Shown: piece by piece, positions 11,186 to 29,585 of the stretch
How the letters are laid out: every line of letters begins with the position of its first letter
Position numbering within the stretch: position 1 is the first letter of the stretch
DNA from: Lentimicrobium sp. L6
Lineage (GTDB): Bacteria > Bacteroidota > Bacteroidia > Bacteroidales > UBA12170
Direction of reading: 5' to 3'
Length of the DNA stretch: 47,776 nt
Assembly: GCF_013166655.1 (NCBI RefSeq)
Contig: NZ_JABKCA010000043.1
Span: 1-47,776 of the forward strand
Made by a program: the position numbers and the translations under genes
Notes under the pieces: generated by a model
What the model was told of the DNA's origin: nothing
What the model saw: only the letters and a program-made list of their open reading frames with translations
Databases searched by the model: none

Positions 11186-11220
11186 AAAGAGTTACAAAAT
11201 TATATTTTGTAACTCTTTTT
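11186..11220 (+). terminator. Rho-independent terminator after the tRNA-Ala fragment
   Basis: A 14-15 bp perfect stem (AAAGAGTTACAAAAT paired with ATTTTGTAACTCTTT) with a 3-nt loop is followed by a run of T. It sits 12 bp after the tRNA fragment, where a tRNA terminator would be expected. The equivalent position of the second fragment also has a hairpin. Confidence 0.8.
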
Positions 11221-11422
11221 TATTTGCAAGCCATTTGCAAGCGAAAAATGAATATGCTGGATAAAAATACATGGAGAATCATTGTATTAAACAAAAATGG
11301 AAGTATTACATCCTATCATTTTGCTTTGATTAAGAATCTCAACTGATTAAACTCTTAGTATATTTAAAAAACATTCAAGTTTAAAACATATATTTTTGAC
11401 AAGTATTTTTAGTTATTATTAC

Positions 11423-12979: not shown

Positions 12980-13204
12980 TACATTATCAATTAGTTATTC
13001 AAATTAATCTGTTTATTTGTCGCCTAACTTCTATAGCAACTCAAATACAGGATTAAGCAGAGTAGGTGAGTGTTCTTTTTTAGGGTGGTCACATTGCTCT
13101 GGCGAACATGGTCAGTTTGCTCTGGCTTTGGGTGGTCAGTTTGCTCTGGCTTTGGGTGGTCTGTTAAATTCGGCTAAGGGTGGTCCAGAGCAGTGTTTTT
13201 TCCA
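12903..13204. mobile_element. IS21-like miniature element, copy 2 (non-autonomous)
   Basis: This 302-bp element has the same ends (TGGAAAAG and TTTTTTCCA) and order as copy 1, but one extra unit of the GTTTGCTCTGGCTTTGGGTGGTCA repeat array (split here over 13118-13160). It carries no transposase genes. It cuts the 5' end of the STAND gene in the same relative orientation as copy 1 cuts the zinc-ribbon gene. It accounts for the gene-free stretch up to 13312. Confidence 0.75.
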
Positions 13205-13312
13205 GTATGCCCTATGGAAGCTGATATAAGTTGGTCAAAAATCTGACACATTGAAAATGCATTCTTCTTTGCCCTTTTCAACATCTAAAACTTTCCAGAA
13301 GCTTTCAATTTT

Positions 13313-13765
13313 CTATTTAGATTTTTTCAATACTTTTATTTGCCATAAAACATTCAAAGCCTTCCATTCACCATTGTATTTAACCATTTGTAAGTACTCA
13401 ACATAATCAGCAGACTCAACTCGTATGCTTGCGATATCTTCACAAATATCAAGCATCTCTATTTTATCGTTTTGTTTATCTTTAGGTGTGTGTTTTCCAT
13501 ATCCTGCAATAGTATACTGCATCATTGTGTTGTAGGATAAATTATTGACGACATCGTTACCTGTGTGCTCATAATTCCGTATGGTTCTTTTTACCAATTC
13601 CGGATGGAGTACCTTGCTCATTTTCAGAGAATCGCCTTCGTACCAGGCCTGACTATATAGGCTTGCAATTTTTAATACCTCTATTGAGTCCTGCATTATT
13701 TGTGCGTTTAATGACAAAGTGAATGTCAGGAAAAACCCTATGGTGATCATTTTAGTTTTTTTCAT
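13313..13765 (-). CDS. Exported lumazine-binding-like (NTF2-fold) protein
   Basis: This 150 aa protein has a signal peptide (MKKTKMITIGFFLTFTLSLNAQ) followed by an NTF2-like fold: ASLYSQAWYEGDSLKMSKVLHPELVKR near the start and WKALNVLWQ at the end. This is the pattern of the Lumazine_bd_2 / SnoaL-like proteins common in Bacteroidota. The function is unknown, probably small-molecule binding in the periplasm. It is the last gene of a long minus-strand operon, 4 bp after its upstream neighbour. Confidence 0.75.
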   Translation of the reverse strand: MKKTKMITIGFFLTFTLSLNAQIMQDSIEVLKIASLYSQAWYEGDSLKMSKVLHPELVKRTIRNYEHTGNDVVNNLSYNTMMQYTIAGYGKHTPKDKQNDKIEMLDICEDIASIRVESADYVEYLQMVKYNGEWKALNVLWQIKVLKKSK

Positions 13766-13769
13766 CTTT

Positions 13770-16010
13770 TTATTTGATTTTTATAAGTTTCTTGATGTTT
13801 ATAACATCCTCATTTTCACAATCAATTTTAATAGCTTTTAATATAAACTCTTCCGCTTCATTTCGTCTATTTGTGCTAAATAAGATAAAAGCCATATCAG
13901 CATACGCTCCAGCATTATTGCTATTTGCTTGCAGACTCTTTTGGATGTTTTGTTCGGCAGAAATGTAGTCAACTTCATTTATTTGAGCTTTGGCTAAAAT
14001 ATGATATGAATCTTTTCTCCTGAAATTATAGGGGTCTGGATATGGATCAAGTTCTATGGCTTTTTCTAATACTTCAATTGCTTTTTGATGCTCTCCTCCT
14101 AATAAATAATAATATCCCAATTGAGAAAGCATTTCTGCGTTAATCTCTTCATGGTCTTTGACCATTTCTAAAATTTTAACAGCCTCTTTTACTTCTTTTT
14201 TCTTTTCGAAAAGATCGTTTGACAACTCATATTGGGCATAAACATTTTGAGGATCTTGTTCTATTATTTTGCTATGAATTTCAGTAGCTTTTTGATAATT
14301 ATGATCTTCCCTATAGAGGTTTCCTATTTCTATTGGTAGACTATGATTTTGGGGGAAGAGACCGGAAGCGCTGTCCAATAAACTAATAGCAGCTTCAATA
14401 TTCAGATAATTTGATTTGACAATGTATGCCTGAACAATATTATCAATATAGGAAGGTTGATTGATTAATGATTCTATAAAATGATATAGGTCAATATCTT
14501 TGTCAATTAAGTCTTCTCTGGTATTAATAAATGCTGCAGGTAAACCAGGCCGCTTTTGTGTTGAAAGATATGCTTCAATTCCTTGTGCAAAGTATTCTCG
14601 TTCATTTAAATCTGCATACCAATCAAGCGTGTAATTTCCTCTTTTTGCTTTTATATACAATGACTTCAGATCTAAAGTCTGTTTTGGAGTAAATAGCCAG
14701 TGAATGAGATGCCCAAACTCATGAAAAGCAACATTGTACTTTCCGAAAGTATTTTCTATTTGTTGAATTTTATTGCTTGTGGTATGATGGCCACCCTGTC
14801 CTTTTAAATCATCACTTAACCTCATCCCAACCGTTCTTGTTCCGCGAGTATTTTCGAGGTGAGGGCAATTCCATAACAAATGATGGAAATCCATAAAGTA
14901 TACCGTAGAACCTGAAATATAAATTGCTTCCATAAAACCCTTAAAAGGTTCAGTATTAATGAGGATATTCTTTTGTAATATTTCATCACAAAGGTGAAAA
15001 TTGATAAAAACTTTTCGAAGAAAAGGAAATTCATTTGGGGTTTCTTTTTTAGAAAAATCGTATTTAAACTCTTGTATTAGAATATTGTGTTCATCTTTTA
15101 ACTTTCTCAGAGATTCCGCAATAAAATAATGTGCTATGCCATAATTTGGTTTTCTATCTAAAATGCTAAAAGCATGGTTTATACATGCTCTATAATTCTT
15201 CATATGGAATTCAGTAGCAGCTTTTAGTATCAACATATCAATATCCAAAGTAACCTCATCATATTCCATCTTCATTAACAAATCTGCTTTTTCAAATTGG
15301 TTATGCATTAGGAGGCTATCAACTTCCAAAAGACTTTTTTCAGTGGTTATCATTACACTTGAGTATTCTGCAGGAGAATATCCTCTCCCTAATAAGTGAT
15401 GTGCAGCATAGTTTAATGGATTTGATTCTAATGCTCTATTAAGATATTTAGCACTTTCATTTATATCATTTCCATATCGGGATAAGTAGCCTCCCATTTC
15501 ACAAAGTGCTTCTGAGTTTGTTGAATCTATTTTCAGTGCTTTATTAATTGCATTTAAAAAAGAATTAATATCACGGTTTTTATTCAAAACATTTGCATAA
15601 TTAATCCAGCTAACAATATGGTTTGAGTCTATTTCTATTGCTTTCCGAACATATTTTAATGAAGCATCTATATGGTTAAGATCAAGAGCAATAAGTGCTT
15701 TACAATTCAGGGCATCAACATTAATAGAATCCATTTCCAATGCTTCTGAACATAAACGCTCTGCTTCTTGATAATTCATTGTAAAATAGGCCCAATCAGC
15801 TTGTAGAATTAGTGAGAAAATGCTGTCTGGGAACTGGGTTTTGACTGTTTGAGTATATTCTTCAACCTCATTAAACCGATAGTTACTTTTAAACTCCTTA
15901 ATCTTTTGCTCGGCCTCTTTTATACTAGAAATTTTAAAGGCGAGATCTGAATGCTTTCTGTTACATGCAAAGCAAGAAATTAATATCAAAATGAATAAGC
16001 TATATCTCAT
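13770..16010 (-). CDS. TPR lipoprotein with HExxH metallopeptidase-like centre
   Basis: This 746 aa protein has a lipoprotein signal (LISCFAC) and TPR repeats over roughly residues 35-330 and again 530-740. A central non-TPR domain contains FHEFGHLIHW at about residues 428-437, a HExxH zinc-binding motif. The domain also has YADLNEREYFAQGIEAYLS, which could supply the third zinc ligand (Glu), as in gluzincin-like peptidases. It is expected on the outer or inner membrane, facing the periplasm or surface. TPR arms flanking a peptidase suggest a multi-protein scaffold. It is the penultimate gene of the operon. Confidence 0.8.
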   Translation of the reverse strand: MRYSLFILILISCFACNRKHSDLAFKISSIKEAEQKIKEFKSNYRFNEVEEYTQTVKTQFPDSIFSLILQADWAYFTMNYQEAERLCSEALEMDSINVDALNCKALIALDLNHIDASLKYVRKAIEIDSNHIVSWINYANVLNKNRDINSFLNAINKALKIDSTNSEALCEMGGYLSRYGNDINESAKYLNRALESNPLNYAAHHLLGRGYSPAEYSSVMITTEKSLLEVDSLLMHNQFEKADLLMKMEYDEVTLDIDMLILKAATEFHMKNYRACINHAFSILDRKPNYGIAHYFIAESLRKLKDEHNILIQEFKYDFSKKETPNEFPFLRKVFINFHLCDEILQKNILINTEPFKGFMEAIYISGSTVYFMDFHHLLWNCPHLENTRGTRTVGMRLSDDLKGQGGHHTTSNKIQQIENTFGKYNVAFHEFGHLIHWLFTPKQTLDLKSLYIKAKRGNYTLDWYADLNEREYFAQGIEAYLSTQKRPGLPAAFINTREDLIDKDIDLYHFIESLINQPSYIDNIVQAYIVKSNYLNIEAAISLLDSASGLFPQNHSLPIEIGNLYREDHNYQKATEIHSKIIEQDPQNVYAQYELSNDLFEKKKEVKEAVKILEMVKDHEEINAEMLSQLGYYYLLGGEHQKAIEVLEKAIELDPYPDPYNFRRKDSYHILAKAQINEVDYISAEQNIQKSLQANSNNAGAYADMAFILFSTNRRNEAEEFILKAIKIDCENEDVINIKKLIKIK

Positions 16011-16032
16011 AAGTTTTATGCTTTTGGTTCTG

Positions 16033-16842
16033 TCAGTTTTTATCTATCTTTAGGATAAACTTATCCCCTTTGATTTCAGCACAATACACTTCTGTTTGAA
16101 CTTCTTTATCTTTAATCAATATTGCGAATTTTTTATACTCATTTTCTTTATTTATGTTATGCATTGGGAAAAAATACTGTGCTGCGAATTGTTTCATTAA
16201 ATACTTAGCCTGCAAAATGTATTGCGATTTCTCCCAGGGATCTGAATTTGAAAAAACGATATCAATTTTTTCAGTTTTTGATTTTAAATACTCATAGTCA
16301 TTTTTATAATCCCCTTTATAGTCGCCATTGTGATAAATAACAATTCCATCAATTATAATTAAAAATGCAGATTCGAATACTCCAGAATGTTTAGAGTTTA
16401 TTGTATATACCTCAATTGTTTCATCTTTGTAGTGTGATCGTGGATTTCTTAAACAATGATATTTTTCTTCTGATGAGAAATCCCAACCAAAGAAATAAGT
16501 AATATTTTCGATTTTTTTATCCCAATCGAGAATTAGAGGATCATAATGGTCACCATGTTCATGCGATGTAAATATAAATACATTATAGTCTTTTATTTCA
16601 TCAGGATCTATATAACCAGATAGCAGATTCTTGACGGGTTGTTTTTCCCATTTAAAATCATACTTTTCCTGATAATCAAAAATGAGGAAGTTGCTCTTCG
16701 TTTTTATTGCCCATCCAGAATGACCCAGATACACAATGGAGATTTTATTATTATTCAAATCTAGAGGGTTTCTGTCACTTTTCTGAGCCTTTAATGTTGC
16801 CATTATAACAATTATACCACAAACCAATAATATTTTTCTCAT
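16033..16842 (-). CDS. Exported metallo-beta-lactamase-fold hydrolase (UlaG-like)
   Basis: This 269 aa protein has a signal peptide ending in LKAQ. The metallo-beta-lactamase fold begins with IVYLGHSGWAIKT and carries the metal motif HEHGDH at residues 94-99, with later His and Asp candidates (HSGVFESAF, YHNGDYKGDY). The family resemblance is to UlaG-like L-ascorbate-6-phosphate lactonases and RomA-type proteins, but substrate specificity is not readable. It is in an operon with exported proteases, with gaps of 22 and 44 bp to its neighbours. Confidence 0.85.
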   Translation of the reverse strand: MRKILLVCGIIVIMATLKAQKSDRNPLDLNNNKISIVYLGHSGWAIKTKSNFLIFDYQEKYDFKWEKQPVKNLLSGYIDPDEIKDYNVFIFTSHEHGDHYDPLILDWDKKIENITYFFGWDFSSEEKYHCLRNPRSHYKDETIEVYTINSKHSGVFESAFLIIIDGIVIYHNGDYKGDYKNDYEYLKSKTEKIDIVFSNSDPWEKSQYILQAKYLMKQFAAQYFFPMHNINKENEYKKFAILIKDKEVQTEVYCAEIKGDKFILKIDKN

Positions 16843-16886
16843 CTTGTTAAGTCTTTTTTTATTCTTATCCCATCCATAGGTGATTT

Positions 16887-18005
16887 CTATTTTATCAATA
16901 CAATTGGCTTGTTTTGTAGCCCTTGATTGGATGTTAACCGAATGAAATAGGTTCCATCTGCAACTCTTCTTCCTTTTGAGTTTTTACCATCCCATGAGGC
17001 AGAATGATTGCCGTAATCCTTCATTTCATCCATCAGAATATTTACTAAATTCCCATAAGGATCATAAACTTCTAGCTTGATTCTAGTTTGATTATAAATT
17101 TGGAAATGTATAGTTGTTTTATCATTAAATGGATTTGGATAATTCTCCAGAACGATATTAGAATTGTATAATTCCTGCGAAACTATAGCACTCGGTGTGA
17201 GAAATATTTCTGCCCAATCATTTTGCCAATAAAGAGTAATAAGTAAAGAATTGTTTAGGGGGTTAAAAGTTGGGTAAATGATATAATCATCCTCATAAAA
17301 CAGCTCAGGTTCACTACTAAAATTAGGGTCGAATTTATATATCCCAGGCAGTTCATAACCTGCGATATAATAATTGTTTTCCAAATCTTTTGCTATACCA
17401 TCGCTACCTGCTAATGATGTATTGGCCATTGTATAAACTGTAGAGTCGGTTAGATTTACTGCAAGAACTGGAGGATTGGGTTTGTCAAGACAAACTAATA
17501 TTCGATTGAACTCAGGCTCATAAAGCAAGCCATTTGGTCTATCAATTCCATTACCCTCAGCAAAAACCCAAAAATCTCTTGTAGCCGGATTGATTTTGAA
17601 AACCCTATCTCCAAATCTTTCTGTAGCGATTATATTTCCTGAATTAACGGCAACTAATCCTGTCAATAGACTGACTCCCTCATCAGATAAATTCAAATCC
17701 ATAACTAACGATCCTGTTTCCAAAGAGTACCCCTTAATTCTGCCACCCAAAGCTGTTCCATATATCGTATCATCAACGATTGCCAAGGCATCTATCATAC
17801 CAGCATTTTCAACAAAGTAGCTTTGATTACCAAGGTTGTCAATTGCAACTAAATCTCCTCCACCTCCATAATTCGATACTAAATATCGATTGTGCATCGA
17901 ATCAATAATGATTTTTTGTGGTTGAATTAATAAGTTCTGTGCATTTATTGATAGAGTGGTGATTAGGAGCACTGTTAAAATGATTACTTTTTTCATATTA
18001 TCCAA
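16887..18005 (-). CDS. Secreted SMP-30-like propeller with T9SS sorting domain
   Basis: This 372 aa protein has a signal peptide (ILTVLLITTLSINAQ) and a beta-propeller like SMP-30/gluconolactonase or NHL-type proteins (GLLYEPEFNRILVC, DGIAKDLENNYYIAG). A C-terminal type A sorting domain begins with LENYPNPFNDKTTI and ends PIVLIK. It should be secreted or surface-anchored through T9SS. A start at the fourth codon (MKKVII) is equally plausible. It is the only T9SS cargo in the 13-gene operon. Confidence 0.85.
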   Translation of the reverse strand: MDNMKKVIILTVLLITTLSINAQNLLIQPQKIIIDSMHNRYLVSNYGGGGDLVAIDNLGNQSYFVENAGMIDALAIVDDTIYGTALGGRIKGYSLETGSLVMDLNLSDEGVSLLTGLVAVNSGNIIATERFGDRVFKINPATRDFWVFAEGNGIDRPNGLLYEPEFNRILVCLDKPNPPVLAVNLTDSTVYTMANTSLAGSDGIAKDLENNYYIAGYELPGIYKFDPNFSSEPELFYEDDYIIYPTFNPLNNSLLITLYWQNDWAEIFLTPSAIVSQELYNSNIVLENYPNPFNDKTTIHFQIYNQTRIKLEVYDPYGNLVNILMDEMKDYGNHSASWDGKNSKGRRVADGTYFIRLTSNQGLQNKPIVLIK

Positions 18006-18021
18006 TTATGTGGTGTAATTA

Positions 18022-19383
18022 TTAATTAGTTTTTTCTTTTAATGGATACTTATCACCATCACTGTCAAAATCATACATTCCTGAAATAATTCCATTTTCA
18101 TTTCTTGTAAATTGTATCCTGTACTTTTCTTCATTTATATCCTTATACTTGAAAACATCATTACCCATAGGTATCATTTCTTGCTTTATTGAATTACCAC
18201 GTTGAAGTATCAATCCTTCTCTTTCGATACTGATTTTAATGTTTTTATAAATTCCTTGATATTCTGATAACTCCAAACTACCTATGTTTTTTGGATTTAA
18301 TTCAATTTCTTTCCCAGCAATAGACCATTCAAGCTTGTGTTTTTTTAAGCTATCTGTCTCTGTTTTTAGTAATTCCTTTGCGGCCTCCAACTGCGCAACA
18401 ATTAGTGCTTTATCAGAAGAACATGGAAAATCTGGAATTACACCATTAATGTAGTTCGTTTTAGAATAGGGATTTATTTCCTGGGAATAGGGTACTTTCA
18501 GGTTTATTAGTATATCAGGAAAGCTCATATAACGCACTCCGTGCGCTCCTCCTCTTGTTTTTTCTCCCACTATTTTGGCTCTTTTCAGTTGCTGTAACTG
18601 ATATGCCAACACTTCAGCCGAAGAATAAGAATAATTGCTCATTAGAATGTAAATTGGTACTTCAGTTATTCTTGGACCAGAAACCCATTCTTGTGTCCAT
18701 CTTTGCTCTGTAATGCTATCCTTGCGAATAAAATTATCTGTCAGATGTGTACTTTTATCAAAAAAATAACTGCTAATTAGTTGAGCCATAGCTTCATCTC
18801 CACCGCCATTCAACCGAAGGTCAATTATCAATGCATCGCTATTAGCAACAAAATTCATTGCAGCAATAGCTGTTGGTCCTGCTGATTTTGGATTGTTGAA
18901 TGTAGTTAGATTTATATACCCAATATTTCCAGTCTGGATTTCTACTTTTTGAAAACCAAAATTATTTTCAGGATATCCTAGCTTTATTTCAGCCAATAAG
19001 TCATCTGGAATCTTTTCATAGGGATAAACCCTGATATGGTCATCATTAGATATTTTACGTAAGTCTTTTGTTAGTTGAGAGGTGAAGTCCTTTACATTTT
19101 TAAATTGATGGTAGTCTCCTTTTTTTTGTTTTTCATTTAAGTAGTTAATCATTTTTAAGGATACTTCAGGTAAAGGGTAGTATTCGAGAAATATTTCTTT
19201 AGTTTTCTCAATGATTTCCGAACGATTTCTGCTGGTGAGTTGATCATTTTTATAGCTATTACTTTTCTGAGAAAATGAACTGTAAGGGTTAATAATTTGC
19301 AATAAAAGAACCACTAATACACTTAGAATTTTTGATTTCATACTTTTCATTTCTTTATTTGACATATTTTCTGTTGAAAACAT
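18022..19383 (-). CDS. Exported S41-family serine protease
   Basis: This 453 aa protein is an S41 (tail-specific/IRBP-like) protease. The helical N domain (TKEIFLEYYPLPEVSLKM) is followed by a core with DALIIDLRLNGGGD near residue 190 and YSYSSAEVLAY near 252, where the second Ser is the expected nucleophile. The Lys partner is probably in ARIVGEKTRGG-like text (AKIVGEKTRGGAHG). The real start is probably ATG at 19341 or 19350, which gives a proper signal peptide (SKILSVLVVLLLQII). It is a paralogue of the S41 protein at 21102 with an extra C-terminal domain of about 90 residues. Confidence 0.85.
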   Translation of the reverse strand: MFSTENMSNKEMKSMKSKILSVLVVLLLQIINPYSSFSQKSNSYKNDQLTSRNRSEIIEKTKEIFLEYYPLPEVSLKMINYLNEKQKKGDYHQFKNVKDFTSQLTKDLRKISNDDHIRVYPYEKIPDDLLAEIKLGYPENNFGFQKVEIQTGNIGYINLTTFNNPKSAGPTAIAAMNFVANSDALIIDLRLNGGGDEAMAQLISSYFFDKSTHLTDNFIRKDSITEQRWTQEWVSGPRITEVPIYILMSNYSYSSAEVLAYQLQQLKRAKIVGEKTRGGAHGVRYMSFPDILINLKVPYSQEINPYSKTNYINGVIPDFPCSSDKALIVAQLEAAKELLKTETDSLKKHKLEWSIAGKEIELNPKNIGSLELSEYQGIYKNIKISIEREGLILQRGNSIKQEMIPMGNDVFKYKDINEEKYRIQFTRNENGIISGMYDFDSDGDKYPLKEKTN

Positions 19384-19427
19384 AGATGTTTATTTATTTC
19401 TACTTTTTTTAAAATCAATAAAAACCA

Positions 19428-20462
19428 TCATTCTTCGGGCAAACCGCCCACGAAGTTCAAACCTTCCAGATTTCGTATTCTTGTTTTTGATTGATTATTA
19501 ATTCTTATATACTTTCCACCACTGGAAACACCTGAAAAAACACCATATCCATTTTCGATGTTTGTATAAACTCCTCTATTCATTACTACTGTACTAGATG
19601 GTTGATAAGACTCATGATAGGCATAGAAACTATATTCAGAAGTGGCTATAACAAACTCAATTTTGCCGTGGTAGCGCTCTAAGCTATTGGATGATGGAAT
19701 GGTTTTTAATAAATTGCTATAAAAGTCTACGCCTACTACTGGGACATTGATGCTTTCTCCTCCAAACAAAGTTCTAGAAGTCACAAAAGGGAAAGGCCAA
19801 TCAACATATTTAAAAACAGCTGTATTTGGTTCATTTGGTACCTGCTCCATATAGTGAAATCGAATATATGGTTGGTAAATACTAATATCTGCAATAGTTT
19901 CAAATGAAAATGTGCTGTTTTTTTCAAACGAAATGAAATACATAGGATCAGTAACCCTTATTGCAGAGGAGTTATGTAGATTTGTTTTAGAACGGATTAT
20001 TTCCCCTGATTTAGGATTCTTTATTTCTAATAATAAAGGTTGATTGATATCTAACCTATTGATTGTTCCAGCATAATAAACTTGCATTTTGGGGGCATAA
20101 AAAATCCCTTCTTTTTTATTATAAACTGTGATGGTATCAAATTCGATTATTTGATTCCCGGATAATACTTTTACATCCAATTTGTGAGAATATAAATTAG
20201 AATCAGGGATTTTAGCAGACTGATATATGTTTTCGGCTGACAAAAAAGCTTTTTCGATTCTGATATAACTGATGCTATCTTTTGGATTAATGAGTCCATA
20301 TACGATCGTTATATCTTTGTATTCATCAAATAGCTCTACTGTTTTATCGCAAGATGAAAAAATGAAAAGGCTTGTGATGAGTATAGTTGCTATATAAGCC
20401 TGAACAATGGTATTCTTTATAGCGCAATTTTTTCGGTTTGTTATTTTGCAATAATAATTCAT
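19428..20462 (-). CDS. DUF4249-like lipoprotein
   Basis: This 344 aa protein has a lipoprotein signal (LITSLFIFSSC, Cys near 38) and a beta-rich body with YGLINPKDSISYIRIEKAFLS near the N terminus. That is the pattern of DUF4249 proteins that accompany TonB-dependent or secretion functions in Bacteroidota. It lies between an S41 protease and an isochorismatase-like pseudoenzyme (6 bp gap). The function is unknown and the family call is moderately sure. Confidence 0.65.
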   Translation of the reverse strand: MNYYCKITNRKNCAIKNTIVQAYIATILITSLFIFSSCDKTVELFDEYKDITIVYGLINPKDSISYIRIEKAFLSAENIYQSAKIPDSNLYSHKLDVKVLSGNQIIEFDTITVYNKKEGIFYAPKMQVYYAGTINRLDINQPLLLEIKNPKSGEIIRSKTNLHNSSAIRVTDPMYFISFEKNSTFSFETIADISIYQPYIRFHYMEQVPNEPNTAVFKYVDWPFPFVTSRTLFGGESINVPVVGVDFYSNLLKTIPSSNSLERYHGKIEFVIATSEYSFYAYHESYQPSSTVVMNRGVYTNIENGYGVFSGVSSGGKYIRINNQSKTRIRNLEGLNFVGGLPEE

Positions 20463-20468
20463 ACCTCT

Positions 20469-21077
20469 TTATTTATCATTTAGTGAGTGAAAGGCGAATG
20501 TTTTAATCCCCAGCTTTGTAAGCTTTTTAATCGCCTTGTCTTTCTTTTTTGGTGTTTGTCCCTGAATTGCTTCAGGAATCATATACATATCGAAACCTAT
20601 TTCTTGTCCTTCTAATATGGATTGAGAAATAAATTCTTCCGCTAACAGCCCTATCACCATAATTTCTTTAGCATTATTCTGCACCAGAAAATTGAGGAGC
20701 TCCTCAGATGAAAATGCATTGGATTTCTCTCTGCTTATTATATTCTCATTCACTAAAACAAGCCGCTTATCAAATTGCATGGCTATAGTATCATGAGATG
20801 TATACACTAGCGGAAACGAAAATGACAGGTTTAGTATTTTGTGAATTCTCTTTATATAAACAACATGATCAGGGTCTAGAATCTCGATTATTCTATTAGC
20901 AGCATCCATTGTATTTTGAGAAGCACTCTCTGATAATTTCCCATTCGTATTGTATTCCTGAAAACCCATGACTATCAGAAATTTATCCACAATGAAAGTG
21001 CTCTTTTGTGAAAAACAAAAATGCGTACTTTCGATACCGATTAATAAAAATAGGATTAGAACTCCTCTCATATTCAT
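20469..21077 (-). CDS. Isochorismatase-like pseudoenzyme, exported
   Basis: This 202 aa protein aligns end to end with the 191 aa isochorismatase-like protein at 22190 but has lost the catalytic centre. Asp of LDMQED is replaced by Gly (VMGFQE, residue 38), and the nucleophilic Cys of LLAERCV is replaced by Phe (LLAEEFI, residue 149). The Lys of the triad is kept (REKSNAF, 118). An N-terminal signal (ILFLLIGIESTHFCFSQ) predicts export, unusual for a family that is normally cytoplasmic. A binding or regulatory role, perhaps by pairing with its active paralogue, is inferred. Confidence 0.75.
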   Translation of the reverse strand: MNMRGVLILFLLIGIESTHFCFSQKSTFIVDKFLIVMGFQEYNTNGKLSESASQNTMDAANRIIEILDPDHVVYIKRIHKILNLSFSFPLVYTSHDTIAMQFDKRLVLVNENIISREKSNAFSSEELLNFLVQNNAKEIMVIGLLAEEFISQSILEGQEIGFDMYMIPEAIQGQTPKKKDKAIKKLTKLGIKTFAFHSLNDK

Positions 21078-21101
21078 GTTGTAGTTAATGATTAAATTTA
21101 T

Positions 21102-22154
21102 TTATTCCTTTTTCAGTTTTTCTAAAATCTTTTCCAGTTCAACCTTATGTTGTGCATCTAAGGTCTTTTCTAAAATCTTTTCGACTGCAATTTTATAAGC
21201 TGCAGTTAGTGCCTCACTGGAGGCAACTTCTATATCTGGTTTGATACCAACACTTTCCCAATTCGGTTCGTTTGATTTGCAAATAGGAAATTGAGTTAAA
21301 ACATCTCCTTTTACTATAAGAATATCAACGGGGTGACCTCCTCCTTTGGTTGTTTCTCCAACAATTATGGCTCGTTCTAATTTTTGAAGTGAAAAAGCCA
21401 ATCCTTCAGCTGCTGAAAATGTCCTTTTATTGGTTAGAACATATAAATCAACTTCGGGCATGCGCTTGCCTGGGACATCGGTAAGGGTCCAAAATTCTTG
21501 ATTCATACTCGTATCTCTGCAACTCATACTTCCAAGATATTTTAGTTGAGGAGGGAGAAAATAATTCAATAGCAGATCATTTCCTTCCCCTCCTCCATTA
21601 TCTCTCAGGTCAATAATAATGGCATCTGAATTTGATAAAAACTGCATACTCCCGATCAAGGCCTGGTTAGATGTATCAGAGATAGTGAAATAACTCAGTT
21701 TTAAATAACCCACATTTCCTTCTAGTAGCTCAACCTTTTTATACCCAAAGTTCTCCCTTTTGTCCATTTCCAAATACATTTTATTGAGCTCTTGAATCTC
21801 TTTTTCAGGCAATAAATGATGGTATGCTTTAACTTCCCATGCTTCCTCCTGGCTATAAAAAACAAATAGGTGTTTATCGTTATCAATAAATCTCATATCA
21901 GAAGTCAATTTATTACAAAATTCATTCACTTCATTTAAAGAATCGTAAACTCCCATTTTATACTGACTGATGATATATTCTCCCATTATTTTTCCAGTCT
22001 CGGCAGATAAGTATTTATTCTTCATAATGATGGCTGTATTCTTCACCACTTCTGATTTAAATTCTTCGTTAAACACTAATTCTTCTTGCGCCGATACCTG
22101 GAATACTACTAGGATAAGCATTAAAATGGAGATGATTTTTTTACCTATTTTCAT
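21102..22154 (-). CDS. Exported S41-family serine protease (short form)
   Basis: This 350 aa protein has a signal peptide ending VSAQ and the same layout as the protease at 18022: an N-terminal helical domain, DAIIIDLRDNGGG near residue 183, and RTFSAAEG near 246 with the nucleophilic Ser before AA. RAIIVGETTKGGGHP has the corresponding loop, with Thr-Thr-Lys in place of EKTRGG. It is about 100 residues shorter than the other copy, lacking the C-terminal domain. It is paired with isochorismatase-like genes on both sides, which suggests duplication of a protease-isochorismatase unit. Confidence 0.85.
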   Translation of the reverse strand: MKIGKKIISILMLILVVFQVSAQEELVFNEEFKSEVVKNTAIIMKNKYLSAETGKIMGEYIISQYKMGVYDSLNEVNEFCNKLTSDMRFIDNDKHLFVFYSQEEAWEVKAYHHLLPEKEIQELNKMYLEMDKRENFGYKKVELLEGNVGYLKLSYFTISDTSNQALIGSMQFLSNSDAIIIDLRDNGGGEGNDLLLNYFLPPQLKYLGSMSCRDTSMNQEFWTLTDVPGKRMPEVDLYVLTNKRTFSAAEGLAFSLQKLERAIIVGETTKGGGHPVDILIVKGDVLTQFPICKSNEPNWESVGIKPDIEVASSEALTAAYKIAVEKILEKTLDAQHKVELEKILEKLKKE

Positions 22155-22189
22155 TGGGTTTACGATTTATAATTTCAATTTACTTTAAA

Positions 22190-22765
22190 TTAATTGATGA
22201 CTTCGACTCCCATATTTATAAGCTTCTTGATTGACTTGGATTTTGTTCTTTCTCTATTGCCTAAAATGGCATTGGGGACTAAAAACATTTTGTATCCTAT
22301 TTCTAATCCTCCTCTGGTGGTATGTGTAACACACCTCTCAGCGAGCAAACCCACAATAATGATTTCTTTTGCATTTTTACCTTTAAAGTATGCAGCTAAT
22401 TCGCTATTATTAAAGGCATTGCCATCCTTTTTGATATAGATGTTGCTATTTACGATTTGTAAGCCTTTACAAAAGTTCAGATCTGCAATTGTATCGATAG
22501 AAATTCCTTTAAATGATAGCGAGGAAACAATCATTTCAGTTTTCACATATACAATATTTAGGGGATCTACACAGCCAATTATCTTATTTACATTTCCGAT
22601 GAATTCATATGCTGCACTGTCAGGAATTTTGCCTTGAATATAGTCTTCTTGCATATCCAATACAATTAAATACTTATCCTGAAAAAAATCTTTGTCTTGT
22701 GATTTTGCTGACAAGTTGAATATCGTTAAAATGAGCAACAGGAAAATAATACTATTCGTTTTCAT
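22190..22765 (-). CDS. Exported isochorismatase-like cysteine hydrolase
   Basis: This 191 aa protein has the complete triad of the family: Asp37 in LIVLDMQEDYIQG, Lys112/113 in IYIKKDGNAF, and Cys145 in VGLLAERCVTHT. Family members hydrolyse amides or vinyl ethers such as nicotinamide and isochorismate. The substrate here is not readable. A signal-like N terminus (SIIFLLLILTIFNLSA) predicts export. It lies 35 bp upstream of the short S41 protease and is the active counterpart of the pseudoenzyme at 20469. Confidence 0.8.
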   Translation of the reverse strand: MKTNSIIFLLLILTIFNLSAKSQDKDFFQDKYLIVLDMQEDYIQGKIPDSAAYEFIGNVNKIIGCVDPLNIVYVKTEMIVSSLSFKGISIDTIADLNFCKGLQIVNSNIYIKKDGNAFNNSELAAYFKGKNAKEIIIVGLLAERCVTHTTRGGLEIGYKMFLVPNAILGNRERTKSKSIKKLINMGVEVIN

Positions 22766-22797
22766 ATCTGTCGTTGTTATTGATCAAATGAACATCC

Positions 22798-23712
22798 TTA
22801 ATTTATGGACGCTTTTTGCTTTAGTAATTGAATTATTTGAGAATCAACCCAATAAATATCACCTTTCCCGTCAACTCTTCTATGGAAGAATAAATATTTA
22901 CCATCGGGTGAAACACTAGCTCCAAATTCTGTTTTAGTGGCATTAATCTCAGCTCCCATATTAATCGGTTTTCCCCAGCTGTCATCATCATTTTTAAAAC
23001 TAATAAACAACTCTGGCTTCCCTCGGCCACTTGGTTGCGCATCCATAATCATATAACTTTCGTCAGGAGCAACATAGGGATGAGAATAGAAACTTGAATT
23101 TATTTCACCCTCTAAATATTTAACATCTGGATATTCCCCATTTATGCATTCAGCCTTATATATTCCACGGACTCCATCATAATTACTAGAGAAATACAAA
23201 GTTCTACTATTGGTAGGACAAACAGACATACACCATTTTTTATTCGCCGGACTTAAAAAATACTGTGGTTCACTCCAAGCACTTGGTGTTTTTTCTGTAA
23301 ACCATAAGTCTCCATCATATTGATTATTTCTGTTTTCCTTTCTCTCTGAATAGAAGAATATTTTATCCTCATAAGGAGACATAACAGGTTCAAATTCAAA
23401 AACATCTTTGGCAAATGGAGCCAAATTGGGTTCAGACCATTTACCATCTATCAATTGAGAGTAAAAAATTCTATTTTGTGAACCTTCATAAGTAGGTCTT
23501 CGTGTAAAAAAATAAACGGTTCCATCTTTAGAAAAGGTGCCACTGAATTCAAACTCCTCTGTAGAAATAATTCCTGGTGCAAAAATCTCTGGTATATTTC
23601 CCGGTGGTTTTTGATTGAAATACAAACGATCAGAACTTTGAGCATTGCTCACTTCTATAATAAGTGCGAATAGCAGCATACTTAATACTTTTAGTTTCAT
23701 AGTTTGTTTCAT
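22798..23712 (-). CDS. Exported PD40/TolB-like beta-propeller
   Basis: The frame is open from 23784, but the ATG at 23712 directly follows the upstream stop (TAGG-ATG) and yields a proper signal peptide (MKLKVLSMLLFALIIEVSNAQ), so I place the start there (304 aa). WD40-like PD40 repeats are visible: SGTFSKDGTVYFFT, FEPVMSPYEDKIFFYS, YVAPDESYMIMD and FGASVSPDGKYLFFHR. Such propellers bind peptides or glycans in the periplasm. It is a middle gene of the exported operon. Confidence 0.8.
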   Translation of the reverse strand: MKQTMKLKVLSMLLFALIIEVSNAQSSDRLYFNQKPPGNIPEIFAPGIISTEEFEFSGTFSKDGTVYFFTRRPTYEGSQNRIFYSQLIDGKWSEPNLAPFAKDVFEFEPVMSPYEDKIFFYSERKENRNNQYDGDLWFTEKTPSAWSEPQYFLSPANKKWCMSVCPTNSRTLYFSSNYDGVRGIYKAECINGEYPDVKYLEGEINSSFYSHPYVAPDESYMIMDAQPSGRGKPELFISFKNDDDSWGKPINMGAEINATKTEFGASVSPDGKYLFFHRRVDGKGDIYWVDSQIIQLLKQKASIN

Positions 23713-23713
23713 C

Positions 23714-24751
23714 CTATTTGGTTTTATAGGGCTCGTTAAAATTCTGATTTGGTTCCAGATATAATGTCTCGTTGAAATAGTCAAATACCAAGTTGAATTT
23801 CATCAGTAATGGAAGACCGATTGTCGTATTTATATAGTTTCCTTCGTTATCCGATTCCTCAAAAATGGCAGGGACATTCATCATTTCATAACCTGCTATA
23901 TTTAAGTATTCAATACTCCCATTGTAGCCATAAATTTCACCAGAAGCACCAGTTCCTAAATATATTTTCTCAGTGTTTGGTCTATCAAACCCTAGCTTTT
24001 CGTTTATGGGTAGGGCTACTGGATCGATTCCCCCTAAATCAATAAAAATGTCATGATCAATGCTTTCTTTACCTTTCATCTTGAGATGCATAGGAATGCT
24101 ATAAGAACCTTCTGCATTTCGTGTCATTTTGATTTGGTTTCCATTTCCAACATATTCGAAGGTCTCTTTTCTATGTAGAACAACAACTCTTCTATCGAAA
24201 TCTATCTCCACTACAAAATGTTTGAAGAATGCACCACAAACTTGGCCAGCAATTCCGGGGAAATAATTGAAAAATCCTGATTCCTTTGAAGTTACTAGTG
24301 CATCTTGATCTTTAAAAAGAATTTCACCAAATGCAATTGACAAACCATATGCATTACTAGAATTAACGCCATCGCCTTCTCCTGCACCGGTTACTAGTGT
24401 GTTACCATCTTTTTGAATGCCTAATGAATCTGTAATATCGCTACCATAAAACCAAAGTTTATCCCACATCACTCCATTATCAATCAGCATTTTAATATCC
24501 ATTCCGTTCATTCTGGCATCAACCATCATGTTCATATCATAAAACTCGAAAGGGATGATGTATTCATTTTTTTGCTCAGAGACAATGTAGAAACCGGGAG
24601 GATTCCCCAATGAGTTATTTACCCTCTCAGAATCATCTGATTTATTTCCTTTCGTTGGATCATTCTCTTGATTGGAGGGTGGCCCACAACTTATCAAAAT
24701 GGTCAAAAATAGGATGCTAAAAACGGTCATTAATTTTTGAATATCGTTCAT
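23714..24751 (-). CDS. Retropepsin-like aspartyl protease family lipoprotein
   Basis: The frame extends to 24820, overlapping the previous gene, but ATG at 24751 gives a lipoprotein signal (MTVFSILFLTILISC), which I prefer. The body has the two halves of bacterial retropepsin-like proteins: VDARMNGMDIKMLIDNGV in the first, and IDLGGIDPVALP with NTTIGLPLLMKFNLVFDY in the second. The active-site D-T/S-G reads D-N-G here and the second is D-L-G, so catalysis is doubtful. It is probably a lipid-anchored periplasmic binding protein. Confidence 0.7.
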   Translation of the reverse strand: MNDIQKLMTVFSILFLTILISCGPPSNQENDPTKGNKSDDSERVNNSLGNPPGFYIVSEQKNEYIIPFEFYDMNMMVDARMNGMDIKMLIDNGVMWDKLWFYGSDITDSLGIQKDGNTLVTGAGEGDGVNSSNAYGLSIAFGEILFKDQDALVTSKESGFFNYFPGIAGQVCGAFFKHFVVEIDFDRRVVVLHRKETFEYVGNGNQIKMTRNAEGSYSIPMHLKMKGKESIDHDIFIDLGGIDPVALPINEKLGFDRPNTEKIYLGTGASGEIYGYNGSIEYLNIAGYEMMNVPAIFEESDNEGNYINTTIGLPLLMKFNLVFDYFNETLYLEPNQNFNEPYKTK

Positions 24752-24806
24752 CTCTTTTGTTTTGTTCAACATATTTATATTCAGCATATACTCAATTGTT
24801 CTCTCT

Positions 24807-25196
24807 TTACGATAATTCACGAAGCAAATTCAAAGCCTTAACGGTGTTTTTTATTGGAACAAAAATGTGGTCATGATAATAACCTGCTATGATGTTACAA
24901 CTGATCTGTTGATCGGCAAATTTCTTGCTTATGATTGCGCTTAAACCAACCAATTCTAGAGAAGAATTTACACTTAGTGTGATCCAGTTCATGCTTACAC
25001 TATAAGGAAACTTTAAACTGTCTGCTATCTCTTTTTTCAACACAATAGTTCTGCCTTCAATTTCAACTATAGAAGCCATTATATATTCCTCTTTAATATT
25101 TTTTACATTATGCACTGAGCAGAAAACAAAGACCCCTTCATTTAGTTGGGGAGATATGTTTTTTAAAACGTAATTTATATCAAGTTCCGCGTCCAT
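24807..25196 (-). CDS. ACT-domain protein
   Basis: This 129 aa cytoplasmic protein carries two ACT-like halves: IVEIEGRTIVLKKEIADSL...WITLSVNSSLELVGLSAIISKKFADQQI, then CNIIAGYYHDHIFVPI. It resembles the short ACT_7/CASTOR-like proteins that sense amino acids. It is the only clearly cytoplasmic product of the operon. Its ATG overlaps the CPBP stop (TGATG), showing translational coupling. Ligand and partner are unknown. Confidence 0.75.
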   Translation of the reverse strand: MDAELDINYVLKNISPQLNEGVFVFCSVHNVKNIKEEYIMASIVEIEGRTIVLKKEIADSLKFPYSVSMNWITLSVNSSLELVGLSAIISKKFADQQISCNIIAGYYHDHIFVPIKNTVKALNLLRELS

Positions 25197-26101
25197 CAGT
25201 TTGCCCTTTTATTCATGAATTTAATGGTTTGCTTAAATTTAATTGCATAAATAAGTAATGAAATTCCAACAATTATGTTAACGATCAAGCCAAGCCATGA
25301 AGCTTCAATACCAAATGCTCCTCCAGTCAACCAATGGGGCCCTGTAATAATTGGGCTAATAAATCCACCTTGATCCATCCCTGAATTATTCATGCCGAAA
25401 ACTCCAGCTTGAAAAAAATTCCAGCTGAAATGAACAGCCCAACCCATCCATATTCTTCGTGTTAATATGAAAGGAGCAATTAATGTAATTTGAATGACAC
25501 TAATAGAAAGTGATGTGAATATTGTCGCGTTGTCATTGATAAAATGCATTCCTCCAAAAAATAAAGACACGATCAGAAAAGAAATCGCCGTACCTAGTTT
25601 CTCTTCTAATAGTCGAAAAATAATAACCGTGAAAATTAATTCTTCAATAAAAGAGCCCTGGGCATATCTGAAAATCCTGGTGATAAGGATGTTCCAGCTA
25701 TTAATATAATCAATGGTGTAATAGCCTAAAACAAATAGCACAGCTGTGATTATTATCACCATTCCTCCTCCTATTACTATCCCCCAACCCAAATCTATAT
25801 GCCATCTTTCGAAATTGAATTCAAAGGCTGGCCTTTTTTCGATTCTTTTTGTATAAAACCTATAGGAATAGATCAATAGACCGATAATAATGATTGCTTT
25901 AAAGGCCTTTAGTGTCGATAATACAATTACCTCCTCCATTTTATCGAGAATAAATATCGTTATCACATTATTAACCAGGAGCATAGGAATTAAAAATAGG
26001 ATAGCAATAATAATTCTAGAAAATGGAGAATATATAAATTTCTGAATCCTGTTTTTAGGTATTCTATTTAAGAATAGTTGGTTTGATTTTATAAGTATCA
26101 T
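25196..26101 (-). CDS. CPBP-family intramembrane metalloprotease (CAAX-like)
   Basis: This membrane protein has about eight transmembrane segments. Its CPBP motifs are FIEELIFTVIIFR (Glu-Glu...Arg), FFGGMHF (F-x-x-x-H) and HFSWNFFQ (H-x-x-x-N), the metal site of Rce1/Abi-type proteases. The frame is open to 26191, but ATG at 26101 (MILIKSNQLFL) removes an unlikely N-terminal extension that would overlap the divergent kinase gene. It is the first gene of the 13-gene operon. CPBP proteins often serve bacteriocin self-immunity or peptide processing. Confidence 0.8.
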   Translation of the reverse strand: MILIKSNQLFLNRIPKNRIQKFIYSPFSRIIIAILFLIPMLLVNNVITIFILDKMEEVIVLSTLKAFKAIIIIGLLIYSYRFYTKRIEKRPAFEFNFERWHIDLGWGIVIGGGMVIIITAVLFVLGYYTIDYINSWNILITRIFRYAQGSFIEELIFTVIIFRLLEEKLGTAISFLIVSLFFGGMHFINDNATIFTSLSISVIQITLIAPFILTRRIWMGWAVHFSWNFFQAGVFGMNNSGMDQGGFISPIITGPHWLTGGAFGIEASWLGLIVNIIVGISLLIYAIKFKQTIKFMNKRAN

Positions 26102-26183
26102 TATTGTGTATTTATGTGCAAAACTCTCAACTATTTGCATTTTTTTATAATAAATGTGATATTCAAGAGATTTAGGTGACAAA

Positions 26184-27248
26184 ATGGGCAAAAGAGTTGA
26201 TGAATTACGTTTATCACAAATTTTATTTAGGGTAGAAACATTGAATTATATTTGTAAAATGCTAAATCACAGGAAAACTTCATTGCGTAAATTTCTCTTC
26301 CATTGTATTTTTTGGATCGGATTATTCCTTTTGACTTTTCTATCACTTGCCAGATACGGTGAGCTTCTGTTTTCTTTTCAATTCAGTTTAGTTTTATTAG
26401 GACCACTGATAATTCCCACCTATTTTCACGCTTATATTTTTGAAAGATTTTTCCAAAAGAAGAGATATTATGTTTATGTCGCAATTACCATATTGATCAT
26501 TTTCAGCTTTGGATACTTCAATGCTTGGCTACTAACATTATTTCATAAACAGATTAAATCAGAAACATATTTAACCTTAACCATATTTATGTTTATGTAT
26601 CCTGGCTTGAAGTATTTAAGGATAGGTAGCAAAACTCAATTTAAATTAGATTTAGAGGAGAAAAAACGAATTAAAGCAGAAAATGAGTTGCTAAAATCGC
26701 AAGTTAACCCCCATTTTATGTTCAATACACTGAATAGCATATATTCTTTAATTATTTCTGAGGATAAAAAGTCTGGAGAAGCTGTTCTAAAACTTTCAGG
26801 CTTAATGCGATATATGCTTGAAAATTCAAAAAACAAAACTGTTTCCTTGCAACAAGAATGTGATTTTCTACATAATTATATAGATTTGGAGAGAATTCGC
26901 TTGAATGATAGGTGTGAAATTAAATTCGAATTTACAGGTAATTTTGAAGGCAAAAACATATCCCCTATGCTATTCATCCCTTTTGTTGAAAATGCATTTA
27001 AACATGGAATAAGCGCACAATCAAACATGAACTATATTAAAATCTTAATGAATTCTGAAAATAAGGAAGTGTCACTTCATGTAGAAAATAGAATAGCACC
27101 AGCGAGTAATATTTCAGCGCAAAAACAAAACAAAATTGGGATAGATAATGTCACTCAGAGATTAGATTTGCTATATCCTGAAAAGCATAAGCTTCAAATT
27201 TCTGAGGAGGATGGTATATACATCATTGACTTAAGAATACTCCTATGA
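26184..27248 (+). CDS. LytS/YehU-type sensor histidine kinase
   Basis: This protein is up to 354 aa, with four predicted membrane helices in the first 135 residues and then a His_kinase domain with QVNPHFMFNTLNSIY (phospho-acceptor His177 counted from this start). The ATPase part has FIPFVENAFKHGI and IGIDNVTQRL. An alternative start at 26259 (MLNHRKTSL) avoids overlap with the divergent gene. It overlaps the response regulator by 4 nt (ATGA). Transcribed away from the 13-gene operon, it is a likely regulator of it, sensing an envelope signal. Confidence 0.9.
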   Translation: MGKRVDELRLSQILFRVETLNYICKMLNHRKTSLRKFLFHCIFWIGLFLLTFLSLARYGELLFSFQFSLVLLGPLIIPTYFHAYIFERFFQKKRYYVYVAITILIIFSFGYFNAWLLTLFHKQIKSETYLTLTIFMFMYPGLKYLRIGSKTQFKLDLEEKKRIKAENELLKSQVNPHFMFNTLNSIYSLIISEDKKSGEAVLKLSGLMRYMLENSKNKTVSLQQECDFLHNYIDLERIRLNDRCEIKFEFTGNFEGKNISPMLFIPFVENAFKHGISAQSNMNYIKILMNSENKEVSLHVENRIAPASNISAQKQNKIGIDNVTQRLDLLYPEKHKLQISEEDGIYIIDLRILL

Positions 27249-27946
27249 AACTAAATTGTGTGATCATTGACGATGAGTATTTAGCTCAAAATGTTTTGTT
27301 TAGTTATATAGAAAAGCTAAATGATTTACATTTAGTGGCAAGATGTAATACTGCCCTGGAAGCCATAACAACTCTAAATACTCACAAGGTTGATTTGATT
27401 TTTTTAGACATTAATATGCCAGAAATTTCAGGCTTAGATATGCTGAAAATGCTAGAAAACCCTCCCAAGGTTATACTGACAACAGCCTATTCTGAATTTG
27501 CACTAGAAAGTTATAATTTTGGCGTAGTAGATTATCTATTGAAGCCTATTCCATTTGAACGTTTCGTTAAAGCAGTAAATAGAGTGCATGCATTACTCAG
27601 CAAAGGTGATGAACTATCGTCAGAAAAATTTGATGCAAGTATCATGCTCAAACAGGATGGTATATTCTATAAAGTGTTGTTCGAAGATATTCTATTTATG
27701 GAGGCCAATGGAAACTATATCAAAGTCTATACAACATCAAAAGAATTCCTGATCAGGGAAAAACTCCACCTTATTGAAAAGCAAATCCCTCCATCCTTGG
27801 TGGCGAGATCACATAAATCTTATCTTGTATTCTTAAATAGAATATCAAAAATAAGCGGGAATAAAGTTTTTATTCAGAATTATAAAATCCCAATTGGTGC
27901 TTTTTATAAATTGGAATTTCTTAAAAAGATTGAACATAAATATTAA
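27245..27946 (+). CDS. LytTR-family response regulator
   Basis: This 233 aa protein has a receiver domain with the acidic pair DD at 9-10, phospho-acceptor Asp55 in LIFLDINMPE, and Lys in DYLLKPIPF. It is followed by a LytTR DNA-binding domain (FMEANGNYIKVYT, LVARSHKSYLVFLNRI, IPIGAFYKLEFL). The start overlaps the kinase stop. LytTR domains bind pairs of short direct repeats; no such site could be defined confidently in the intergenic region. Confidence 0.92.
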   Translation: MKLNCVIIDDEYLAQNVLFSYIEKLNDLHLVARCNTALEAITTLNTHKVDLIFLDINMPEISGLDMLKMLENPPKVILTTAYSEFALESYNFGVVDYLLKPIPFERFVKAVNRVHALLSKGDELSSEKFDASIMLKQDGIFYKVLFEDILFMEANGNYIKVYTTSKEFLIREKLHLIEKQIPPSLVARSHKSYLVFLNRISKISGNKVFIQNYKIPIGAFYKLEFLKKIEHKY

Positions 27947-27991
27947 AGATGTATTGGCCCCTCAATACCCCAAAGCAGTCCAATTAATTCT

Positions 27992-28250
27992 GTCAATATT
28001 GACTTTTTTTAAATAATCCGATAATACTTAGAACAAGACCATCGGAATATCAAACGAAGAATAGCCATCAATACTGGATTTAAAGAATTCGAGTCAGCCC
28101 AAAGAGCTCTAGCAGGAATAGAAATAGTAAGTATCATTAGAAAGAAGCAGATAGAAAAATCAATAGAAAATTTGCTTGTAAAATTAAATATTGAAGGAAT
28201 GGGAATCAGATCAATTTCTCGTATACCATAATATTTAATTATATTTGATT
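27992..28250 (+). mobile_element. Mosaic IS6/IS1 relic C, with palindrome
   Basis: It opens with the palindrome GTCAATATTGAC (27992-28003) and a T tract, then directly enters the C-terminal part of an IS6 transposase (NIKRRIAINTGFKEFES, RALAGIE). At about 28164-28226 this switches to a piece of the IS1 transposase gene (ENLLVKLN..EGMGI..ISRI), then back to the IS6 tail TATTTAATTATATTTGATTTTT. It lies in a 335-bp gap between the response regulator and the next gene, with no functional frame. Confidence 0.75.
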
Positions 28251-28268
28251 TTTAAAATTGAGTTGGAT

Positions 28269-28305
28269 ATAAGATGCTATTTTTATCTTAATAACAGCAT
28301 CTTAT
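28269..28305 (-). terminator. Hairpin over the stop codon of the propeller gene
   Basis: ATAAGATGCT at 28269-28278 and AGCATCTTAT at 28296-28305 form a 10-bp perfect inverted repeat spanning the last codons and stop of the minus-strand propeller gene. No clear T tract follows on that strand, so it may protect the mRNA end rather than terminate efficiently. Confidence 0.4.
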
Positions 28306-29476: not shown

Positions 29477-29509
29477 AATTTACTCTATTTAATTGATTAT
29501 TATTTTGGG

Positions 29510-29558
29510 CGAAAATAGAGCATAATCTAGCAATAAGGGACTTTCTCGATGGAGAGAG
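29510..29558 (-). promoter_or_regulatory. Promoter and dyad operator of the propeller gene at 28283
   Basis: On the minus strand a TATTTTCG box (29510-29517), close to the Bacteroidota -7 consensus TAnnTTTG, lies 33 bp before the ATG. The dyad CTCTCTCCATCGAGAAAG (29541-29558) is 23 bp further upstream. The identical dyad at the same distance stands before the FG-GAP gene at 34862. No -33 TTG box is at the right spacing, which suggests activator dependence, plausibly on the neighbouring AraC protein. Confidence 0.65.
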
Positions 29559-29585
29559 ACTAATAGTTAAAAAAAATACCAAGAT

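Follow-up and report, generated by a model that had tools for sequence, protein, structure and literature searches.

Introduction

In Staphylococcus aureus, the CPBP/Abi protein SpdC is under two-component control; it also interacts with the kinase of that system, WalK, and inhibits the synthesis of four peptidoglycan hydrolases (PMC5854430). In group B Streptococcus, another CPBP/Abi protein, Abx1, regulates the histidine kinase CovS without needing protease residues (PMC3578759). The same sources give EExxxR, FxxxH and HxxxN as the CPBP motifs (PMC5854430, PMC3578759). As for mobile DNA, IS26 translocatable units are described as arrays in which the cargo is flanked by directly oriented IS6-family copies (PMC4894685).

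We have compared these systems with a locus of Lentimicrobium sp. L6 (Bacteroidales), in which a CPBP gene stands between a LytS/LytTR pair and a run of genes for exported hydrolases. The window, i.e., the whole stretch of DNA analysed, is contig C43 (NZ_JABKCA010000043.1; 47,776 nucleotides) of a 5.14 Mb genome assembled in 195 contigs.

Results

A tight run of 13 genes divergent from a LytS/LytTR pair

The ORF list of the window contains 13 consecutive ORFs on the minus strand, from 26101 down to 13313. The largest intergenic gap between the longest ORFs is 44 bp and three pairs overlap, which bears out the co-directional, tightly spaced run reported in a first-pass annotation of this DNA. 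The first ORF is open from 26191, the probable ATG of the CPBP gene being at 26101. The two-component genes diverge from this operon head, as had also been noted, with 82 or 157 bp between the CPBP ATG and the LytS ATG at 26184 or 26259. They encode a LytS-type histidine kinase (PF06580; 26184..27248, plus strand) and a LytTR response regulator (27245..27946, plus strand), and have everything by which we recognise such a pair: the PF06580 kinase, the receiver plus LytTR domain and adjacent genes. The run is thus a real, tidy operon-like unit, from which we infer a single transcript. Three minus-strand terminator-like sites lie inside the run, none of them in a gap. The sigma-70 scan of the window was uninformative (64 sites versus 77 expected). 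The Bacteroidetes-type promoter pattern occurred six times in the window, versus a shuffle mean of 3.1, and not once upstream of the operon head. We also searched the divergent intergenic region for LytTR direct repeats and saw no convincing one.

From its head, and all on the minus strand, the run encodes a CPBP (Rce1-like) membrane protein (25196..26101); an ACT_3/ACT_7 protein devoid of export signal (24807..25196); a retropepsin-like protein with a lipobox seen by eye (23714..24820); an exported PD40 propeller (22798..23784); the exported isochorismatase-like protein ISOa (22190..22765); the exported S41 peptidase S41a (21102..22154); ISOb, an exported isochorismatase-fold protein and probable pseudoenzyme (20469..21077); a protein that looks by eye like a lipoprotein (19428..20462); a second exported S41 peptidase, S41b (18022..19383); a protein with a T9SS sorting tail (16887..18005); an exported MBL-fold protein (Lactamase_B_3; 16033..16842); a TPR protein containing an HExxH motif (HEFGHLIH) and, by eye, a lipobox (13770..16010); and an NTF2-fold protein (Lumazine_bd_2; 13313..13765).

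Pfam backed most of the gene labels of the first-pass annotation, namely CPBP/Rce1, ACT_3 plus ACT_7, PD40, the two Isochorismatase and two S41 domains, Lactamase_B_3, TPR and Lumazine_bd_2. Two labels came out weak: the retropepsin call is marginal (Asp_protease_2, 24.9 bits for a cut-off of 24.3), and the sorting tail of the "T9SS propeller" protein was detected by both Pfam and NCBIfam, its propeller by neither. The DUF4249 label received no library support, as the 19428..20462 protein matched PF14054 neither in Pfam at E 0.1 nor in NCBIfam at 0.01. This protein has matches of 27–28 amino acids (41–43% identity) to two proteins adjoining other LytS pairs, one of which is a DUF4249 protein by Pfam. 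Its single-sequence AlphaFold model (pLDDT 30) was discarded.

By a simple and generous hydrophobicity rule, 10 of the 13 operon ORFs passed as exported. Of 168 control ORFs taken from this genome, 65 passed (p=0.006). Lipoboxes were read by eye. The NTF2-like protein narrowly fails this rule and looks exported by eye. The resulting count of 10–11 out of 13 agrees with the earlier statement that nearly all products are exported or membrane-bound. Pfam recognised no transporter family in the operon.

Catalytic state of the exported proteins

Isochorismatase/nicotinamidase-like cysteine hydrolases possess an Asp-Lys-Cys catalytic triad. ISOa keeps this triad and matches PF00857. ISOb, which still matches PF00857, has a Gly for the Asp and a Phe for the Cys. 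Its model (pLDDT 83) keeps the fold, with 3hb7 as the best Foldseek match, and resembles isochorismatase-like hydrolases (TM 0.47–0.68 on query length and rmsd 3.5–8.9 among the 50 matches listed). In a tree of 21 rows, ISOb falls in a clade of eight (support 95/94), five of which have lost the Cys (ISOb and the proteins of G002, G304, G207 and G367) and three of which keep it. Outside this clade, G090 and G163 have a Ser at the Cys position. Judging from its residues, ISOb is probably a pseudoenzyme. Our literature search, which covered few subscription papers, found no relevant paper on isochorismatase pseudoenzymes or on secreted isochorismatases in Bacteroidetes; the papers on secreted isochorismatase effectors that it did find concern fungi and plants.

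The MBL HxHxDH and the HExxH of the TPR protein are intact, and the S41 serines are present. Where DTG is expected, DNG and DLG stand in the retropepsin-like pair, to which the window protein belongs. On contig C54 of the same genome, an M1-like protein lacks the Glu following the HExxH helix, which is present in two relatives, and an S8-like protein lacks one Asp that G002 keeps. The exported S8-like proteins at L089:12173-13084, L155:6565-7491 and L087:3-896 share a conserved FPNANTRPT, and two of the three have lost an Asp of the first motif.

A rare CPBP subfamily linked to LytS and to isochorismatase-like genes

The CPBP protein matches PF02517 with 43.6 bits (cut-off 22.4). ISO-profile and CPBP searches covered 393 genomes of the order and, for CPBP, a class sample of 395 as well. 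At 50% identity or more, the CPBP subfamily occurs in four of the 393 order genomes (the window genome, G207, G304 and G367; relatives 51–53% identical); the class sample yielded the window genome (1/395) and no further member. All four members have EExxxT in place of EExxxR, and keep FxxxH and HxxxN. Since EExxxR is replaced, we do not claim a protease.

All four genomes are among the 15 of 393 with a match to the ISO profile at 1e-20. Without the window genome, the overlap is 3/3 (p=3.7e-5) and, counted by genus, 2/2 (p=0.0026). In G207, the CPBP gene (53% identity) is divergent from a LytS-LytTR pair, as in the window, and the tree places the LytS of G207 as sister to that of the window (support 94/91). 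The LytTR tree lacked resolution and did not group the CPBP-linked regulators. G207 has no hydrolase operon behind its CPBP gene, and its ISO gene is on another contig. In G304 and G367, the CPBP gene (51%) directly precedes an ISOb-like gene, with no LytS pair at the CPBP head. Of twelve loci with more distant CPBP genes, nine were viewed; when the same rule was applied, neither LytS/LytTR nor ISO turned up at any of the nine. Among these distant loci, L153 shows by eye a nicotinamidase-like frame without signal about 5.5 kb off, and the CPBP gene of L155 lies among S8-like, S41, aspartic-protease/PDZ and NTF2-fold genes. Links among CPBP, isochorismatase-like and LytS/LytTR genes thus recur in a few other genera. 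The literature search, with its few subscription papers, found no paper on LytTR with CPBP in Bacteroidetes or on LytTR with DUF4249.

The run is unique as a whole among the genomes searched, and some of its parts recur

We searched for the gene order in 60 genomes, comprising that of the window, those of ten congeners and 49 from other members of the order, using six of the 13 genes as queries: ISOa, TPR/HExxH, S41a, retropepsin-like, MBL and T9SS-tailed. No second copy of the order was found with the six queries in the 60 genomes, so that conservation as a fixed operon is rejected for the genes searched. The first-pass annotation had named scattering of the genes in relatives as evidence against its own reading; for the genes that served as queries, such scattering is seen inside the genus and only in part outside it. 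Here the close relatives of ISO stand alone in the genus, those at G000:C23 and G003:C253 having one common setting and that at G002:C287 another. The MBL gene has no match among the ten congeners. In G002:C112, a relative of S41b (73% identity) lies one gene away from an S8-like gene that matches the S8-like gene of C54 at the DNA level, and the T9SS-tailed protein has a 38% identical relative in L042. The TPR/HExxH protein was rejected as a marker because, beyond its own copy, it gave mostly TPR background matches; two G042 matches span the HExxH part.

We then compared the neighbours of 20 ISO loci (window excluded; L142 counted, with its ISO frame broken) with those of 50 control regions, 48 of which begin at the first base of a contig (phmmer, 1e-5, 50% coverage). 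Other families of the operon occur near ISO at 8/20 loci versus 2/50 controls (Fisher p=0.0004). These neighbours are T9SS-tailed plus PD40 in L042; NTF2-like in L129; NTF2-like plus PD40 in L131; LytS/LytTR in L128, L132 and L142; CPBP in L130; and CPBP plus LytS/LytTR in L133. The controls with a match are L181 (LytS/LytTR) and L193. With the regulators excluded, the counts are 5/20 versus 1/50 (p=0.006), and against the 38 controls of at least 10 kb the p value is 0.002. The result is weakened by two recounts: restoring two dropped ISO loci gives 8/22 (p=0.0008), and collapsing by genus leaves no difference, with 4/14 cases versus 2/7 controls (two loci being taken as their own genera, and controls comprising up to fifteen regions per genus). 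Two genera, g98 and g117, contribute three case loci each, all six with a match. No repeats of at least 40 bp were found in L130, L132 or L133. In the control L193, which was kept among the controls, an exported isochorismatase gene adjoins a PD40 gene (15404-19898), with an MBL-like neighbour seen by eye. The run is therefore unique as a whole among the genomes searched, and parts of it recur in a few genera.

Mobile DNA and gene transfer around the module

The module lies between repeat B on its left (12903..13207), possibly an IS21-type end, and an IS6 remnant with a nested fragment on its right (27958..28268, plus strand). The 14.75 kb between them are the longest mapped repeat-free stretch. 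Other copies or pieces of repeat B lie at 6998-7278, 37324-37437 and 47722-47776, and on C54 and C150. The IS6-family element is 785 bp long and has terminal inverted repeats (ends GGTTCTGYCGCATTAAT). Among the best 40 of 101 candidates, it gave at least 18 matches at about 14 positions: of the copies in the matches listed, eight are on C43, three on C54 and one each on C91, C123 and C150, i.e., 11/14 on C43 and C54. Relative to the contig sequences as given, these listed matches all lie on the plus strand; they come from one of the 11 genus genomes, that of the window. The eight decayed copies in the window (119-607, 8186-8610, 28010-28268, 30728-31114, 34445-34672, 37027-37298, 39700-39907 and 41425-41594) have one orientation and separate the gene modules of the contig. 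A fragment of IS6/IS240 DDE transposase (PF13610) lies at 8252-8659. That these remnants bound the module is observed, and we infer that they may have moved it.

The GC content of C43 is 0.323, versus 0.33–0.37 for most other loci measured in the genome, one being at 0.321. The flanks contain AbiEii-, nSTAND3-, HipA- and Fic-type genes and transposase fragments. At 658-12979 and 37481-41091 of the window, the possible defence or toxin-antitoxin genes are PLD-like, AAA_15, Fic (two), AbiEii, nSTAND3 and HipA. Elsewhere in the window, two AraC-type regulators (28283-33659; 28% identical) each adjoin a T9SS-tailed, propeller-like gene, the two secreted products being 30% identical to each other; L042 also has an AraC gene followed by a T9SS-tailed gene.

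The ISO DNA of G304 and G207, which belong to different families, is 94% identical over 829 bp (L130:6712-7540 and L132:9605-10431), and an SGL-type gene is 87% identical over 845 bp. As the CPBP genes are about 67% identical, the 94% points to transfer of single genes; the ISO similarity would reflect either such a single-gene transfer or contamination of a MAG (G304, 3%).

A second run on C54 and other LytTR neighbourhoods

C54 (L089), in the window's own genome, carries a LytS-LytTR pair followed on the same strand by genes for exported hydrolases, encoding aspartic protease/PDZ, M13, S8-like, beta-lactamase-fold, retropepsin-like (about 32% identical to that of the window), alpha/beta hydrolase, T9SS-tailed and M1-like proteins. 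Its genes are less tightly spaced than those of the window operon: gaps within the run reach 254 bp, and one of 632 bp follows LytTR. This second run appears to lie in island DNA too, since the GC content of C54 is 0.312 over 22500-41956 versus 0.359 over 1-20000. Around the LytS/LytTR pair of G003:C45 are a CPBP gene of another subfamily and S9, alpha/beta hydrolase and S41 genes, one S41 copy being short. Of the 12 further LytTR neighbourhoods viewed in the genus (L088, L089 and L095-L104, of which L098-L104 were judged by BLAST and N-termini without Pfam), only C54 and G003:C45 are rich in hydrolases. L105-L107 show LytS/LytTR only.

In L095 and L097, LytS/LytTR pairs adjoin DUF4249 lipoproteins, and L097 also has a TonB-dependent receptor. 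In L108 (8713-13012; contig C60 of the window genome), a PD40 gene lies 1.6 kb from the pair. The window itself has a second pair, divergent from a T9SS-tailed FG-GAP/ASPIC protein (41618-45281).

Discussion

The reading that we favour, tentatively and with somewhat less than even confidence, is that of a mosaic, horizontally assembled regulon of exported hydrolases, the first gene of which encodes an Abx1/SpdC-like CPBP partner of LytS. The LytS/LytTR pair would sense an envelope or extracellular signal and switch the divergent operon from the shared intergenic region. By analogy with Abx1 for CovS and SpdC for WalK, the CPBP protein, of a rare subfamily, may be a membrane partner of LytS, either a feedback brake or an amplifier. 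Exported hydrolases would make up the cargo together with a propeller and one or more enzymes that are probably dead, all located in the periplasm, at the outer membrane and outside the cell, possibly with a digestive or scavenging role. IS6-family and other IS elements would add and exchange genes, so that the regulator and CPBP genes would be more stable and the cargo variable. Overall, the locus suggests a plug-in toolbox built with the help of mobile DNA. This reading draws on the LytTR-LytS/CPBP arrangement of G207 with its sister LytS, on the CPBP-ISO adjacency in G304 and G367, on the occurrence of CPBP within ISO genomes, on the 8/20 versus 2/50 neighbour counts, on the C54 run with its retropepsin-like relative, on the probable ISO transfer between G304 and G207, on the IS6 clustering on C43 and C54, and on the published kinase partners of CPBP proteins. 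Against it stand the searches for LytTR sites and promoters, which gave nothing convincing upstream of the operon, the ungrouped LytTR tree, the few genera behind the case-control result, the nine negative distant CPBP loci, the single class-sample genome, G207 without a hydrolase operon, and the two hydrolase-rich neighbourhoods out of 12.

Its main rival, which we regard as rather unlikely, is passive accretion, in which an IS-rich island gathered exported hydrolase genes of the same direction, sharing a promoter at most and no common role. The unique gene order among the genomes searched, the GC-poor contig dense in IS remnants, the nearby toxin-antitoxin- and defence-like genes and the genus-collapsed recount all suit accretion; it accounts less well for the short gaps, a 14.75 kb module with no mapped IS remnant within, the LytS-CPBP link of G207 and the finding that other genera and families also keep some of these gene families together. 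Another view is that of a fixed catabolic pathway, induced by one extracellular peptide, amide or ester substrate. Several hydrolase classes and the intact ISOa speak for such a pathway, which we nevertheless find improbable given that Pfam recognised no transporter family in the operon, that the content is shuffled elsewhere and that ISOb lacks two triad residues.

The first-pass annotation had combined exported hydrolases beside a LytS/LytTR pair, which stands, with a coherent peptide- or amide-processing system, which is not supported as a fixed pathway: none of the other genomes searched has the order, what recurs are reshuffled subsets, and at least one member, ISOb, is without some of its catalytic residues. 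For its further suggestion of a bacteriocin or peptide-signal link there is no evidence, Pfam having recognised neither a peptide exporter nor a RiPP enzyme in the operon and window. Maturation of and immunity to such a peptide, with the CPBP protein as the processing or immunity factor (cf. AgrD/MroQ), is the least probable explanation, and a very improbable one. In its favour, staphylococcal agr links a CPBP protein with a LytTR-class regulator (PMC10482373). Nevertheless, Pfam and the ORF lists revealed no bacteriocin or RiPP precursor, exporter or modifying enzyme in the operon or beside the module, where the adjoining ORFs are short and unremarkable only; the CPBP subfamily departs from the EExxxR motif with its EExxxT; and LytS is of the PF06580 type.

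If the regulon reading is true, it gives the CPBP-kinase partnership described in two Gram-positive systems a genetically linked counterpart in another phylum, helps to explain exported hydrolases in unstable clusters of such bacteria, defines a family of exported isochorismatase-fold pseudoenzymes with a ligand to seek, and makes the local LytS/LytTR pair testable. A wider proposal, speculative and in our opinion unlikely to hold in full, is that Bacteroidales-type envelope toolbox regulons recur, with LytS/LytTR and a probably non-proteolytic CPBP partner as a portable control unit, and with exported hydrolases exchanged by IS6 or horizontal transfer, the dead ones serving as binders.

Comparison with known systems

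To our knowledge, SpdC is not encoded together with hydrolases, and we know of no shared operon for Abx1 and CovS. Like SpdC-WalKR, the window combines a CPBP protein with a two-component system; the kinase and regulator types differ, and contact and control in the window would be by analogy. A CPBP protein and a histidine kinase are likewise common to the window and to Abx1-CovS. Like L097, where LytS/LytTR stands with DUF4249 and a TonB-dependent receptor, the window has a local pair beside envelope genes; unlike L097, its operon has no TonB receptor, and the DUF4249 label of its lipoprotein is unproven. IS26 arrays share with the window the direct orientation of the copies, those of the window being mostly decayed and their cargo other than drug resistance. 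Finally, agr/MroQ resembles the window in having a CPBP protein and a LytTR-class regulator (PMC10482373); agr makes a peptide signal, whereas no peptide-signal gene was recognised in the window.
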